Assembly (NCBI GenBank): GCA_018675425.1
Contig: JABGYD010000033.1
Location: 1 to 39,524 of the forward strand
Length of the DNA stretch: 39,524 bases
Direction: 5' to 3'
Origin: Kordiimonadaceae bacterium
GTDB taxonomy: Bacteria; Pseudomonadota; Alphaproteobacteria; Sphingomonadales; Emcibacteraceae
The position numbers and the translations under genes are program-made. Of this stretch, positions 7,211-17,835 are shown piece after piece. Numbering within the stretch: the first letter of the stretch is position 1; every line of letters begins with the position of its first letter. A model generated the notes under the pieces. It had not been told where the DNA came from. It saw only the letters and a program-made list of their open reading frames with translations, and made no database searches.

Positions 7211-9448
7211 TTACTTTCTTTTCCAATTTCTTGGTCTTCGACTATTTTTTCCGCTTGATTTACGAAGCTTGAACGTCATCAGTTTTTCATTAATCACCTG
7301 AAATATTAGTCCGCCTGAAATTGGATTCGCTTCTCGGAGCTTCACTGTTACAGTATCTCCTAATTGAAAAGTGATACCACTATTTTCGCCTTTTAGTAAT
7401 TGATGACCCTTATCGTGATGAAAGTAATCACCAACTAGTGATGATATAGGAACAAACCCTTCACCACCAGTGTCAGTAAGGCTTATAAATAATCCCGCGC
7501 GGACAACCCCATTAATCTTACCATTAAATTCTTCATCTATTTTTGTGCTCATGTAATGGGCTATATAGCGTTCTGTACTATTGCGTTCAGCGATCATTGA
7601 GTTTCGTTCCGTGGTACTAATATGTTCTGCTGTTTCGAATAAGGTTTCTGTATCATTTTTATTTAATCCATCATCGCCTAATTTTAGCGCTTTGATGAGA
7701 GCACGGTGGACTATCACATCCGCATAGCGACGGATTGGTGAGGTAAAGTGAGCATATTTTGATAATGAGAGACCAAAATGGCCATAGTTCTCAACACTGT
7801 ATTTAGCCTGCATTTGGGTACGGAGAACTATTGTACTAATAACATTCTCATGCGGTGTCCCTTTTACTTTTCTGATAAGATTATTAAATAATTTTGGTTT
7901 TACCACTTGTCCTTTGGCGAATTTGACATCAATACTCTCCATAAATTGCCTTAGGGTTTCAAGCTTATCAAAACTTGGTTGTTCATGAATGCGGTACATG
8001 CACTGTGACTGTTTTTTTTCTAGTTCCTCTGCAGCGGCAACATTAGCCTGTATCATAAACTCCTCGACTAACTTATGAGCAGGTAAACTTTCGCGGTTAA
8101 GTATTGAAGAAACTTCTCCCTTTTTATTTAGGATAATTTTCTTTTCTGGGACATTTAGTTCTAGGGGTTCGCGGTGAATACGACCTTTAGTTAAAATTTT
8201 GTATGCCTGATACAAAGGAAATACAACACTGTCCATGATAGGCAAAACCCGTTTTGAAGGTTTTCCATTCTGGGCAGTTTGAAATTCTTCATATGAAAGG
8301 CTTGCGTGACTTCTCATTAGGGCACGCACAAATTTATGACGTATTTTCTTCCCCCGATTATCAAACCAGATGTGCACTGCCATTGTGTAACGGTCTTTAC
8401 CCTCATGAAGGGAACAAAGCCCGTTTGATAAAATTTCTGGTAACATCGGTATGACCCGATCAGGAAAATATGTTGAGTTCCCTCTTTTCTTGGCTTCTTT
8501 ATCAAGCGAAGAAGTTGGGTTTACATAGTGGGCCACATCTGCGATGGCAATAATAATATGACACCCCCCAGAATTTTTTGGATCAGGGTCCATTTCTGCC
8601 CAGATAGCATCATCATGGTCTCTTGCATCAGATGGGTCGATAGTTACGAGAGGTATATTACGAAGATCATGCCTTTTTCCTAGGACCGGCTCTTCAGATT
8701 TCTCAGTTTCTCTCAAAACTTCATCAGGAAAATCTATAGCAATTCCTTGAGAAATAATGGCAATGAGGCTAATGGATTTTGGATCGGTAACCGAACCAAA
8801 ACACTTTAGAACCTTGGCACTTCTGGTTTTAACTTGTCGAGATTTTTGTGGTTCTTGGCTCATGCTTATTAGAACTAAGGTGCCATCCTTGGCGCCGTTC
8901 CAAGCGTTTTTATCTATTAGATATTTGTTGCGGTCTTTTTTATCAGTAGCTTCAACGAACGCGTTATAATCACTATCTGCATGAAAAACGCCCATTACTT
9001 GCGATGATTTTTGTTCTAACTTTCGAATTATTTTGGCGACGTAGCCAACTTCACCTTTATCTTGATTGGGTGTTAATCTCACAAGAGCCTGGTCACCTAT
9101 GACGAGTTTATTGCGCCTGTCGTGAGCAAACATCAGTATCTTAGGTGGTTCTTCCTGTAATTCCCAGTTTAAAGGTTTTGCAGTTAGGTCACCAAACTGG
9201 TCTATACCATTTATTTCAACAACTAGTACCGCGGCAAGATCACCCACTGCGTGAAGTTTTGACTTAGTACTTTTTTCAAGTTTTCCGTCGCGAGCCATCT
9301 TGCGAAGTATTTTTTTAAGTTTTATTTTTTCTTCGCCTTTTATTTGAAAAGCACGAGTAATTTCGCGTTTGGACGCACGCCCAGGGTTTTCCCTGATGAA
9401 TTCAAGTATTTTTTTTTCATCAGGAAATGGTGCAATTTTTTTTATCAT
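7211..9448 (-). CDS. rnr: Ribonuclease R
   Basis: Processive 3'-5' exoribonuclease of the RNase II/RNB family, able to degrade structured RNA. It has 745 aa. The first 65 residues form a winged-helix-like basic domain, followed by cold-shock-type OB folds. The RNB catalytic signature TIDPSDARDHDDAI lies at 269-282, with the metal-binding Asp cluster at D271, D277, D279 and D280. A C-terminal S1 domain (GKINGVVRAGLFISL) comes next and a basic tail (RRPRNWKRK) ends the protein. It begins 8 bases after the topA stop without a strong Shine-Dalgarno, so translation is probably coupled to topA, a conserved alphaproteobacterial pairing. Confidence 0.97.
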   Translation of the reverse strand: MIKKIAPFPDEKKILEFIRENPGRASKREITRAFQIKGEEKIKLKKILRKMARDGKLEKSTKSKLHAVGDLAAVLVVEINGIDQFGDLTAKPLNWELQEEPPKILMFAHDRRNKLVIGDQALVRLTPNQDKGEVGYVAKIIRKLEQKSSQVMGVFHADSDYNAFVEATDKKDRNKYLIDKNAWNGAKDGTLVLISMSQEPQKSRQVKTRSAKVLKCFGSVTDPKSISLIAIISQGIAIDFPDEVLRETEKSEEPVLGKRHDLRNIPLVTIDPSDARDHDDAIWAEMDPDPKNSGGCHIIIAIADVAHYVNPTSSLDKEAKKRGNSTYFPDRVIPMLPEILSNGLCSLHEGKDRYTMAVHIWFDNRGKKIRHKFVRALMRSHASLSYEEFQTAQNGKPSKRVLPIMDSVVFPLYQAYKILTKGRIHREPLELNVPEKKIILNKKGEVSSILNRESLPAHKLVEEFMIQANVAAAEELEKKQSQCMYRIHEQPSFDKLETLRQFMESIDVKFAKGQVVKPKLFNNLIRKVKGTPHENVISTIVLRTQMQAKYSVENYGHFGLSLSKYAHFTSPIRRYADVIVHRALIKALKLGDDGLNKNDTETLFETAEHISTTERNSMIAERNSTERYIAHYMSTKIDEEFNGKINGVVRAGLFISLTDTGGEGFVPISSLVGDYFHHDKGHQLLKGENSGITFQLGDTVTVKLREANPISGGLIFQVINEKLMTFKLRKSSGKNSRRPRNWKRK

Positions 9449-9456
9449 ACAATCAC

Positions 9457-12072
9457 TTATTTAGCTTTAGCCTTTGGTTCGACTTTGGCTTTTGCTGTTT
9501 TTGTAGCTTTAGCCTTTGGTTTTGCTTTGGCTTTGGCTTTTGCTTTCTTTTTAGGTTTAGCCTTAGTTTTTTTACCTTTTAACGCTCGCTCCTTAATAAG
9601 TTCTAAAGCTTCCTTCAAGGTAATTTCTTTTGGGTCTTTATCTTTTGGTATTGTGGCATTTATGCGTTTATATTTCACGTAGGGGCCGTAACGGCCATCC
9701 ATTACAAGAATACTTCCGTCGCCGTCAGGGTGCTCACCAAGGTCCTTAATAGGTTCAGCAGCCTTTCCACGTTTAGAGAGAGCTTCACCAAGTAATGTTA
9801 CCGCATGATTAATTCCAATATTAAAAACATCTTCCGGGTCTTTAAGGCTAGCAAAGACGCTATTATGAGAAACATAGGGTCCGTAACGACCGATTGCAGC
9901 TTTAATAATTTTTCCATCTTCTGGGTGAATACCTACATCTCGAGGAAGTGCGAGAAGTTTTAGCGCTCGTTCAAAATCGATACTATTAATATCCATACCT
10001 TTTGGAATTGAAGAGCGTTTTGGTTTTTCTTTTTCTATAGGCTCTCCAAGCTGGATATAAGGTCCAAAACGTCCAGTTCTGAGAGTTACTTCCATACTTG
10101 AGATTGGATCAATACCTAGCGTCTTTGGACCATCACCTTCTGTTGCGGCTTCATCGCTATTTTGAATTTGACGCGTGTAGTTACATGTAGGATAGTTTTC
10201 ACAGCCAATAAATGCTCCAAATTTCCCGGTTTTTACGCTTAATCCACCTTCTTTACATTTTGGGCAACTTCTTGGATCTGTATCGTCATCGCGTTCTGGA
10301 AAAATAAAAGGAGCGAGGGCATCGGTTATAACATCAAGTACTTCTGAGACCCTAAGGTCTTTAGTTCCTTCAATTGATTTGCTAAAGTCATTCCAAAAAT
10401 TTGCAAGAACTTCTTTCCACGCGATTTTTCCATCGGATACTTTATCTAAATCTGCCTCTAGATCTGCTGTAAAGTCATATTGAACATACTTACTAAAATA
10501 GTTTTCTAGAAATGATGTTACAACCCGTCCCTTACCTTCAGGTACAAAACGGTTTTTGTCCATTACAACATAATTTCGGTCACGAAGTACAGTTAGGATA
10601 GAAGCATAAGTGGATGGGCGACCAATACCAAGCTCTTCCATTTTTTTGACGAGGCTCGCCTCACCGAAACGTGGCGGTGGTTCGGTAAAGTGTTGATTTG
10701 ATATAATTGTATCTTTATTGATACTTTCCCCGTTTGTTAATTTAGGCAGGCGCTTTTCATCATCATCTTTAGTATCGTCACGACCTTCCTGATAAAGGGT
10801 AAGAAAACCATCAAATACTTGAACAATTCCTGTTGCCCTGAGTGAAATTTTTCCATCGTCTGACAAAATGTCAGCCGTAGTGCGGTCCATTCGAGCTTCA
10901 GCCATTTGACTTGCAATAGTTCTCTTCCAAATTAGCTCATAAAGGCGCCGCTGATCTTCATCAAGCCTATTTGCAACGGATACTGGCAACCTAGAAAGGT
11001 CGGTTGGACGGACAGCTTCATGTGCCTCTTGAGCATTTTTTGATTTGTTTTTATAAAACTTAGGCTTTGTGGGAACATAATCATCACCGTACTTATCGCC
11101 GATCAAAGTCCGTGCTTTGGTAACGGCTTCTGCGGCAATATTTACACCATCGGTACGCATGTATGTAATTAAACCAGTGGTCTCTCCAGCTATTTCAATA
11201 CCTTCGTAAAGCTTTTGAGCAGTTCTCATAGTACGTTGTGCATTAAAACCTAGTTTCCGCGATGCTTCTTGTTGCATAGTTGACGTAGTAAATGGTGCAG
11301 CGGGATGACGCTTTGTTGGTTTGCTTTCCACATTTTTAACAGTAAATTCAGACCCTTCAACCGCCATTTTCGCTGCAGTTGCCAATGTTTCATTATTTAA
11401 ACTGAATTTTTTAAGTTTTTCGTCAGCGAGTACTATTAATCTAGCGGTGAATGGCTTCCCTGTAGAGCTTTTAAGGTTAGCTTCTATTGTCCAATACTCT
11501 TCTGATCTGAACTTTTCAATTTCAAGTTCGCGTTCACAAATTAGCCGAAGTGCAACAGATTGCACGCGCCCTGCAGATTTAGAACCAGGTAATTTACGCC
11601 AAAGGACTGGTGATAAATTAAAGCCTACTAGATAATCTAGGGCGCGACGCGCCAAATAAGCATCCACCATTTCATCATCTACATCTCGTGGATCATCCAT
11701 GGCTTTTAAAATAGCAGATTTAGTGATTTCACTAAAAACTACTCGTTTAACTGCAACATCCTTCATAACGCCACTGCGCGCCTTAAGAGCTTCAAGAACA
11801 TGCCAAGCTATAGCTTCACCCTCGCGGTCAGGGTCTGTGGCTAGGATTAACTCTTCAGATCCTTTTGTGCTATCTGCAATGTCTTTAATACGTTTCTTGC
11901 TATCGGTGTCGACTTCCCATTTCATAGCAAAATCATTCTCGGGATCAACTGATCCATTTTTCGAGGGGAGGTCACGAATGTGCCCAAAGCTTGCAAGGAC
12001 TTTATAATCTTTGCCAAGATATTTATTTATCGTTTTCGCTTTCGCCGGAGATTCAACAATTACGGTTTTCAT
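9457..12072 (-). CDS. topA: DNA topoisomerase I (type IA)
   Basis: Relaxes negative supercoils. It has 871 aa. The TOPRIM domain starts MKTVIVESPAKAKTINKYLG and carries the acidic ATDPDREGEA motif at 78-87. The catalytic tyrosine is Y304 in GLITYMRTDG. A C-terminal zinc finger is present (CPKC ... CENYPTC), then repeated GRFGPYIQ / GRYGPYVS / GRYGPYVK topoisomerase C-terminal repeats. The last roughly 45 residues are a low-complexity Lys/Ala/Pro tail made of KAK and KPKAK units, probably a non-specific DNA- or RNA-polymerase-binding tail. GGTGA lies upstream of the ATG. Confidence 0.98.
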   Translation of the reverse strand: MKTVIVESPAKAKTINKYLGKDYKVLASFGHIRDLPSKNGSVDPENDFAMKWEVDTDSKKRIKDIADSTKGSEELILATDPDREGEAIAWHVLEALKARSGVMKDVAVKRVVFSEITKSAILKAMDDPRDVDDEMVDAYLARRALDYLVGFNLSPVLWRKLPGSKSAGRVQSVALRLICERELEIEKFRSEEYWTIEANLKSSTGKPFTARLIVLADEKLKKFSLNNETLATAAKMAVEGSEFTVKNVESKPTKRHPAAPFTTSTMQQEASRKLGFNAQRTMRTAQKLYEGIEIAGETTGLITYMRTDGVNIAAEAVTKARTLIGDKYGDDYVPTKPKFYKNKSKNAQEAHEAVRPTDLSRLPVSVANRLDEDQRRLYELIWKRTIASQMAEARMDRTTADILSDDGKISLRATGIVQVFDGFLTLYQEGRDDTKDDDEKRLPKLTNGESINKDTIISNQHFTEPPPRFGEASLVKKMEELGIGRPSTYASILTVLRDRNYVVMDKNRFVPEGKGRVVTSFLENYFSKYVQYDFTADLEADLDKVSDGKIAWKEVLANFWNDFSKSIEGTKDLRVSEVLDVITDALAPFIFPERDDDTDPRSCPKCKEGGLSVKTGKFGAFIGCENYPTCNYTRQIQNSDEAATEGDGPKTLGIDPISSMEVTLRTGRFGPYIQLGEPIEKEKPKRSSIPKGMDINSIDFERALKLLALPRDVGIHPEDGKIIKAAIGRYGPYVSHNSVFASLKDPEDVFNIGINHAVTLLGEALSKRGKAAEPIKDLGEHPDGDGSILVMDGRYGPYVKYKRINATIPKDKDPKEITLKEALELIKERALKGKKTKAKPKKKAKAKAKAKPKAKATKTAKAKVEPKAKAK

Positions 12073-12136
12073 TATCTATTATTCACCAATAGTGTCATCG
12101 TATATAAAATTTCATCAGGGGCTTTTACCCAATGTT

Positions 12137-12352
12137 TTAACAAAAAGATACCCTATTTACAGTAATTAGGTATATTTTTCATATCAGTTAGTAATTTAAA
12201 AGTATAGTCAGTTCTATGGATACATCAAATTTTGTTAAATGAATCATTTCAAGAATGGCCATTGCAGTAGGACTAAACTTTTAAATTATAATTGCCTTTA
12301 TGTTTTATTCAGTAATCAGCTTATTTATAATAACTAATGATGGCTCTAGCAT
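12137..12352 (-). pseudogene. Probable decayed 3' remnant of dprA
   Basis: The 308-base gap between plsY and topA holds no intact gene. dprA (a loader of RecA onto incoming DNA) normally occupies this spot in Alphaproteobacteria. Reading the minus strand in one frame from 12352 gives short stretches in DprA order. IINKLITE near 12331-12308 resembles the family's TNRLIREGA. ILEMIHLTKFDVS with IEL (12256-12209) resembles the C-terminal ILELL..TPVSVDEL helix region. NRVSF (12157-12143), just before the stop at 12139, resembles the terminal GNRVSL. Several in-frame stops interrupt the frame and the conserved Rossmann core is gone. The matches are short and the region A+T-rich, so chance is possible. 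A weak hairpin followed by TTTTT lies at 12143-12173 on this strand. Confidence 0.42.
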
Positions 12353-12380
12353 AATATTAATCCTAAAGTATTTATTTAGA

Positions 12381-12986
12381 TTACTTATTTCCAATTTTAG
12401 GTTCTGTTCCGGCCATTAACCGTCGAATATTATCTTTATGTTTAAATATTATTAGAGCGCACATTATAGTTGCAAGAATTGTTATTTTAATACCAAGAAA
12501 ATAGTATCCCAATAAGGGGGAAGCTAGAGCTGCGATAATTGCTGAGAGGGAGGATATTCTGAATAAAAATGCCGATATTATCCAGACTATACAGCATGAA
12601 AGACCGGTTAGTGGGGATAGGGCTATTAGTATTCCGAGGAAGGTTGCAACACCCTTTCCACCAGAAAGTTTTAAAAAAATTGAATAGATATGGCCAAGAA
12701 ACGCTCCGGCACCTGCAAATAGGCCAAGGCCGGGGTAAAAATATTCGACTATAAAAACTGCTGCAGCCCCTTTTCCAATATCAAGTAACAAAGTAAGTAG
12801 GGCTAGGAATTTATTCCCTGTGCGCAATACGTTTGTTGCTCCAATATTACCTGACCCGATTTTGCGAAGATCACCAAGCCCTGCAATTTGGTGCAATACT
12901 AGACCAAAGGGTACAGAGCCAGTTATATACCCGCAGGCAAAAATAGTGAGAAGCAAAATCGTCGAATAATCAGCCAGCATATTCAT
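12381..12986 (-). CDS. plsY: Glycerol-3-phosphate acyltransferase PlsY
   Basis: Integral membrane enzyme that transfers acyl groups from acyl-phosphate to glycerol-3-phosphate, the first step of phospholipid synthesis. About 201 aa with five or so hydrophobic segments. The family's three conserved motifs are visible: GSGNIGATNVLR, GGKGVATFLG and the C-terminal KHKDNIRRLMAGTEPK. The frame allows a TTG at 13007; the ATG at 12986 is preferred and the ATG at 12980 is also possible. All overlap the end of the pyrC-like gene, indicating translational coupling in a pyrB-pyrC-plsY operon. Confidence 0.95.
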   Translation of the reverse strand: MNMLADYSTILLLTIFACGYITGSVPFGLVLHQIAGLGDLRKIGSGNIGATNVLRTGNKFLALLTLLLDIGKGAAAVFIVEYFYPGLGLFAGAGAFLGHIYSIFLKLSGGKGVATFLGILIALSPLTGLSCCIVWIISAFLFRISSLSAIIAALASPLLGYYFLGIKITILATIMCALIIFKHKDNIRRLMAGTEPKIGNK

Positions 12987-14253
12987 AAACACTTTCGCCG
13001 CCAACAACGGTTTTCACAACACGGCCCTGTACAGGCCTCCCATCAAAACATGTGTTCTTTGTTATACTAATCATTTTTTCTGCTTCAATTCTATAAGGTA
13101 CGTTTAAATCAAACACACACAGATCTGCAGGTGCGCCAATCTTAAGGCGCCCACTTTTAAGCCCCATTATTTTGGCTGGGTTTGATGTCATTTTGGCAAG
13201 AATACTCAAAAGGTCTATGCTATCATTGTGGTATATTTCGAGGCAAATATTTAGCAACGTTTCAAGTCCGATTACGCCCGATTCTGCTTGTTCGAAGGGT
13301 ACCCGCTTAGTTTCGGGGTCTTCAGGATCATGTCCACTAACAATGACATCAATTGTTCCATCTTTTAAGGCCTCTATCACGGCAACTCGATCATCTTCAC
13401 TGCGCAGGGGCGGTGAAATCTTAGTAAATGTGCGATAATCTTCAATGGCATATTCATTGAGTGATATGTGAGGCACCGCAACACCTGCCGTAACATTATA
13501 TCCATCCCTTTTAGCATTTTTTAAAACTTTAATACTGTCAGCACAAGTAATCTGTGAGGCGTGGTAACGACAATTAGAAGATTTAAGAAGCCGCATATCA
13601 CGTTCAAGAACAATGGTTTCAGCTGCAGTTGGGATGCCTGGTAGGCCAAGTCTGGTAGCTAAGTCACCTGCATTCATACACCCATTTTTAGAAAGGTTTG
13701 GCTCAGCGAGATGAGTAATAATTAAAGCGTCAAAGGCCGAGGCATATTTAAAAATACGGCTCATGAGTGCTGCATTTTCTATTGTGCTACTACAATCGGT
13801 AAAGAAGTTGTGTCCAGCTTTAGACATAAGTCCAATTTCTGAAATCTCCTTACCTTCAAGTTGTTTTGTCACCGCAGGCATGGCTATAAAATTAACAAGA
13901 GAATTTTTTGCACGAATGGCAAGGTATTCTATATGTGGAATGCTATCAATAATGGGATCACTATTTGGTTGCACGCATACTGTAGTTACACCACCGGCTG
14001 CCGCAGCTTCACCAGTATTTTTAATAGTGTCTTTATAGTCTTCACCTGGAATACCTATAAAGACACGCATATCAATGAGCCCAGGGCATAGGCAATTTCC
14101 TTTTAAATCGATAATTTTTGCGTTCTTAGGGGCCTCTACCTTTATACCTAAAGCAGCTATTTCTGTATTTATTGTCAGAAGTTCTCCTTTGATATCCAGG
14201 CCACTTTCTGGATCTAGAAGTCGAGCATTTGTATAGAGCGTTACCTCATTCAT
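12970..14253 (-). CDS. Dihydroorotase-like PyrC homologue, probably non-catalytic
   Basis: 427-aa amidohydrolase of the class I dihydroorotase family, next to pyrB. The fold is well preserved (PGLIDMRVF..PGEDYKDT, AAAAGGVTTVCVQPN, PPLRSEDDR). The ligand set is not: the metal-binding HxH after PGLID is R63 and F65, and the catalytic Asp of the usual TDHAPH motif is G307 (SGHDP). D153, H181 and H231 remain. This matches the inactive PyrC' (PyrX) proteins that support assembly of aspartate transcarbamoylase in pseudomonads and are common beside alphaproteobacterial pyrB. A structural role for PyrB is inferred, and an active dihydroorotase should exist elsewhere. The ATG overlaps the pyrB stop as TAATG. 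Confidence 0.88.
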   Translation of the reverse strand: MNEVTLYTNARLLDPESGLDIKGELLTINTEIAALGIKVEAPKNAKIIDLKGNCLCPGLIDMRVFIGIPGEDYKDTIKNTGEAAAAGGVTTVCVQPNSDPIIDSIPHIEYLAIRAKNSLVNFIAMPAVTKQLEGKEISEIGLMSKAGHNFFTDCSSTIENAALMSRIFKYASAFDALIITHLAEPNLSKNGCMNAGDLATRLGLPGIPTAAETIVLERDMRLLKSSNCRYHASQITCADSIKVLKNAKRDGYNVTAGVAVPHISLNEYAIEDYRTFTKISPPLRSEDDRVAVIEALKDGTIDVIVSGHDPEDPETKRVPFEQAESGVIGLETLLNICLEIYHNDSIDLLSILAKMTSNPAKIMGLKSGRLKIGAPADLCVFDLNVPYRIEAEKMISITKNTCFDGRPVQGRVVKTVVGGESVYEYAG

Positions 14254-15755: not shown

Positions 15756-15839
15756 AGGAAGACTTATACAGTGATGTTTAAAGTATATTCAATATATATT
15801 TTGCTTGTATTTGCAGACAAAGTGGTTACCCTAATTGTA

Positions 15840-15932
15840 ATTCCTAGGGGAGTCTTTGAGACTGAGATACTATACTAATAATATAGTAACCCTTAGAACC
15901 TGATCCGGGTTATACCGGCGGAGGGAAGGAAT
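15840..15932 (+). promoter_or_regulatory. TPP (thi-box) riboswitch aptamer
   Basis: Thiamine pyrophosphate-sensing RNA upstream of thiC. P1 is ATTCCT (15840-15845) with AGGAAT (15927-15932). The conserved GGGGAGTC (15847-15854), CTGAGA (15862-15867), ACCCTT..GAACCTGATC (15889-15905) and the CCGG..CCGG hairpin (15905-15918) with GGAGGGA follow in the right order. The variable arm is a 7-bp stem (15868-15874 with 15882-15888). TPP binding is expected to lower thiC expression. Confidence 0.95.
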
Positions 15933-15965
15933 GTAAAAATTCTCAAACCGTTACCGCTACTTCCC

Positions 15966-17835
<1,870 letters not shown>

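Follow-up and report, generated by a model that had tools for sequence, protein, structure and literature searches.

Loss of DNA uptake has been described in several bacterial groups. Transformability is frequently lost in Legionella and Acinetobacter (PMC11472951), and comEC is interrupted in Piscirickettsia salmonis (PMC12955456). The proteins ComEC, ComF, ComM, and DprA have been reported to import and protect DNA delivered by RcGTA (PMC10883770). Here, we present an analysis of the gap between plsY and topA in a member of the Kordiimonadaceae/Emcibacteraceae. The window comprises a whole contig of 39,524 bp from a 2.20-Mb draft genome (94 contigs; 99.62% completeness), and the features of the region are collected in Table 1. 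We propose, with a probability of about 90%, that the gap consists of the remains of dprA, that the genes for DNA reception were lost after the genus ancestor, and that the 3' end of dprA was retained as DNA because it carries a cis element of topA. Elsewhere in the window, a TPP riboswitch (15836-15943; RF00059, 81.8 bits) lies directly upstream of an open reading frame of 616 aa (15985-17835) that by eye resembles thiC, an ordinary arrangement.

Table 1. Features in and around the plsY-topA gap (positions refer to the window)
Feature	Position	Strand	Basis
topA, type I DNA topoisomerase	9457..12072	-	TIGR01051, intact
topA leader, little conservation	12073..12117	-	22/45 vs G003
40-base conserved block, dprA 3' end and bases past its stop; proposed topA cis element	12118..12157	-	37/40 vs G003, family conservation, single genome copy
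Old dprA stop codon TAA, position as in relatives	12137..12139	-	Comparison with relatives
dprA remnant, last 47 DprA residues without gaps, two in-frame stops	12140..12280	-	Profile, tblastn, ungapped placement
In-frame stops inside dprA remnant	12188-12190 (TAA), 12179-12181 (TGA)	-	
Weaker remnant extension, variable DprA linker, two more stops (12281-12283, 12305-12307)	12281..12325	-	tblastn reaches 12325; profile leaves most uncovered
AT-rich remainder of dprA slot, no recognizable homology	12326..12380	-	
plsY, glycerol-3-phosphate acyltransferase	12381..13007	-	TIGR00023, intact

The plsY-topA gap (12073-12380) is 308 bases long and has a GC content of 25.6% compared with 38.3% for the window. 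As described in the initial annotation, a single minus-strand frame in the gap contains stretches resembling DprA, is broken by four in-frame stops, and then reaches the old DprA stop; the number of stops stands, while the two that had been placed at 12301 and 12274 lie a few bases away (12305-12307 and 12281-12283). Without gaps, the remnant matches the final 47 residues of DprA from the same-genus genome G003 at 23 of 47 positions; it reads KFSPTAMAILEMIHLTKFDVSIELTILLNY, stop, LI, stop, KIYLITVNRVSFC, and the aligned end of G003 DprA reads KLSHTAVAIDELIRLTKLETSVVQTVLLELELAGEITRHAGNRVSFC. The runner-up among 78,768 ungapped placements across the window has 12 identities. Using a DprA profile built from ten same-genus proteins, we obtained 28.1 bits for the remnant frame (profile positions 327-379), whereas 4,881 scored dinucleotide shuffles, with all six frames considered, gave at most 5.2 bits; a shuffled control of this kind had been set in advance as a test. 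Consistently, tblastn with a sister DprA against the entire genome matched a single location, the remnant (E 3.5e-5, 44% identity, four stops), and the DNA beyond the old dprA stop is also homologous to that of relatives. One detail has to be revised: the stretch IINKLITE does not correspond to the TNRLIREGA motif, as had been suggested, because the profile match begins only after this stretch, which tblastn assigns to the variable linker preceding KLSHT. That AT-rich intergenic DNA resembles the DprA C-terminus by chance, as a GC content favoring open frames with many I, N, K, and L residues might allow, can be dismissed as exceedingly improbable given the margin over shuffles and competing placements, the correct position, order, strand, and stop, the homology past the stop, and the dprA gene in the same slot of relatives.

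Among the 11 other genus genomes with a completeness of at least 90%, PF02481 was detected in every one, and it was not found anywhere in this genome (the remaining genus genome, G011, is 53% complete and falls outside this set). The slot named in the initial annotation was also confirmed: dprA lies between plsY and topA in all ten same-genus loci readable through to topA (G001-G007, G009, G010, and G012), and it is dprA rather than unrelated intergenic sequence that occupies the same gap in these sister genomes. In G008, a contig boundary falls within dprA, and the slot is not readable through to topA. The remnant shares its slot, strand, C-terminal sequence, and stop with the same-genus DprA (TIGR00732, PF02481; Emcibacteraceae/Kordiimonadaceae MAGs). 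In contrast to these proteins, it has lost the bulk of the gene, including the Rossmann-fold core, and its frame is disrupted by four in-frame stops, giving it the status of a pseudogene. From ~375 DprA residues, about 47-62 recognizable codons are left, and the earlier claim that most of the gene is missing thus translates into about five sixths. Because dprA is present in all other genus genomes with at least 90% completeness, its loss is specific to the lineage of this genome and postdates the genus ancestor. The earlier description of this loss as recent is vague and calls for caution, as the unconstrained part of the remnant has already reached a GC content of about 26% and an identity of about 58%. 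Together, these data support the interpretation of the plsY-topA gap as a dprA fossil in its ancestral slot. In G028, a genome of about 3.9 Mb from the same family (99% complete), ComEC is present and PF02481 is unmatched, which could reflect a gene split between contigs or a further loss of dprA.

Three other genes of the DNA-reception set are likewise absent. ComEC (PF03772) was detected in the same eleven genus genomes and not in this one, in which a full-length query also found none. The comEC locus is collinear with that of relatives, with gltX followed by 290 bp at 25.9% GC and then the same next gene; in this slot, the comEC score was -1.5 bits compared with 8.5 bits for the best shuffle, i.e., no trace above shuffles. 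The slot itself (G000:C47 6479-6768, locus L153) is similar in composition to the dprA gap. For ComM (TIGR00368), the genome contains a weak match in an 807-aa frame alone, the same weak match also occurs in relatives possessing true ComM, and a ComM query gave no trace in the genome. For ComF (TIGR00201), there is just a weak match within a 499-aa frame. The absence of ComM and ComF is read from a draft genome in which missing sequence is possible in principle, although its completeness is high; dprA and comEC are missing from contig interiors and not from contig ends. Neither the PF02481 search nor tblastn revealed a relocated or second dprA, and the search for another dprA, comEC, or comM proposed earlier returned none. 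An intact dprA that was lost or mangled during assembly would be conceivable for a genome in 94 contigs; however, the gap lies inside a contig between two intact neighbors, the differences from relatives are many scattered substitutions and two short gaps rather than the pattern of a misjoin, dprA is found nowhere else, and comEC is missing in a like manner on a different contig, making this explanation very improbable. Judged from the genome sequence, the DNA-reception set (dprA, comEC, comM, and comF) is lost, and the organism probably no longer takes up foreign DNA. The initial annotation had raised the possible loss of transformation from the dprA locus; we infer the same phenotype, and the absence of ComEC, ComM, and ComF strengthens this inference.

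The dprA fossil contains a stretch that has changed far less than its surroundings. The 40-base block at the dprA 3' end matches G003 at 37 of 40 positions compared with 73 of 125 in the remnant upstream and 22 of 45 in the leader downstream (Fisher's test, p 3e-5, an optimistic value because the block was picked after looking). It consists of GGAAAYAGGGTAKCTTTTTG followed by GTAAAAGCCC, recurs throughout the family with small changes and at constant spacing, and is located 45 bases upstream of topA. A search for the block as a repeated motif identified one copy in this genome. Across ten relatives, synonymous identity is 98% in the nine terminal codons of dprA, the highest of all windows along the gene, compared with 44% gene-wide; constraint beyond coding need is therefore present in the dprA 3' end. 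Because the block is kept in the fossil and synonymous sites are constrained in the relatives, we suggest that it represents a cis element, most likely of topA, that overlaps the dprA end and outlived the gene. A scan of the block for promoter consensus sequences performed no better than shuffles and recognized no hexamers, and we found no literature link between the topA promoter and dprA. A hairpin in the block was also considered; visual inspection of the family alignment indicated that its pairing is not maintained in G001 and G031, and the idea was dropped. Alternatively, the block could be a transcript end, a structural DNA-binding site, or residual homology kept by chance, and not an element of topA. 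The lack of a promoter consensus within the block and its distance from topA, for which its role is putative, fit these possibilities, while the synonymous-site constraint in relatives, which is independent of the fossil, the constant spacing across the family, and the persistence of the block after gene death while topA stayed argue against them; we consider them together a tenable but less probable account.

A second genome of the genus, G002, carries lesions in the same genes. In G002, dprA has a TAA stop at E188, comEC has a TAA stop at K219 and a further break near residue 530, comF has a TGA stop, and there is no true ComM. Whole ComM was likewise not found in G004, G005, and G010, and its absence in G002 therefore weighs little alone. 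The lesions are located at 2418 in L132 (G002:C44), at 8341 and about 7407 in L143 (G002:C19), and in L158. Within the same two regions, the neighboring genes have open reading frames, except for one late stop in one gene. A split gltX in G002 was considered as a sign of poor assembly and rejected, because it reflects a run of N and no frameshift. G002 groups with G001, and branches with 99% bootstrap separate it from the present genome, in a tree in which the deeper branching among the other genomes is poorly resolved. Although this case is one draft genome, G002, a separate species of the genus, probably represents an earlier stage of the same reception loss, and its stop codons suggest a second, younger loss. 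Whether these losses amount to a specific shedding of DNA uptake or are part of a general genome shrinkage is evenly poised: the present genome is the smallest in the genus among those at least 90% complete (2.2 Mb compared with 2.6-3.9 Mb), as shrinkage would predict; however, the present genome lacks all four reception genes, and each of them is missing or damaged in G002, where almost every neighboring gene sampled is intact. The pattern of reception genes points to the loss of one pathway and is compatible with neutral loss or selection. We give an even chance to the broader picture in which one marine alphaproteobacterial genus shed the complete reception set in at least two independent losses, finished here and in progress in G002, with a topA element at the dprA end that occurs family-wide and outlived dprA.

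For the dprA fossil and the retained block, we propose the following model. After the genus ancestor, selection on dprA, comEC, comM, and comF would have ceased, followed by deletion or erosion of these genes. Deletion would have removed roughly five sixths of dprA, and the remainder would have diverged by drift with an AT mutational bias. The 3' end would have been kept as DNA because its final codons and the bases past the stop coincide with a cis element of topA, most likely the promoter or a site for a regulator; accordingly, the block may still be under selection even though DprA is no longer made. In this model, we infer the order of the loss events and the action of the block on topA. 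The two apparent stages in one genus, with stops in nearly full-length genes in G002 and near-complete removal in the present genome, provide a natural comparison for recombination, mobile elements, and genome size once DNA uptake stops. Moreover, the fossil exposes a conserved, putative control element hidden at the end of a coding gene.

The four missing genes coincide with the set comEC, comF, comM, and dprA reported for RcGTA reception (PMC10883770). Unlike the RcGTA setting, the GTA-type gene TIGR02217 is absent here and present in one genus member only, and a connection to a gene transfer agent, which we considered, was dropped as unsupported because, among the genus members searched, G001 alone has this gene; plain transformation is therefore the likelier lost trait. 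The two TIGR02217 copies (GTA/phage tail-type) are located about 55 kb apart on G001:C1 (L154 and L155). As in P. salmonis (PMC12955456) and in Legionella and Acinetobacter (PMC11472951), DNA uptake would have been lost via damaged competence genes. In P. salmonis, however, the other competence genes, including dprA, are intact, while all four reception genes are gone in the present genome. Damage to competence genes and loss of transformation are well known, and the dprA fossil described here is a new and well-preserved instance of ordinary gene loss.
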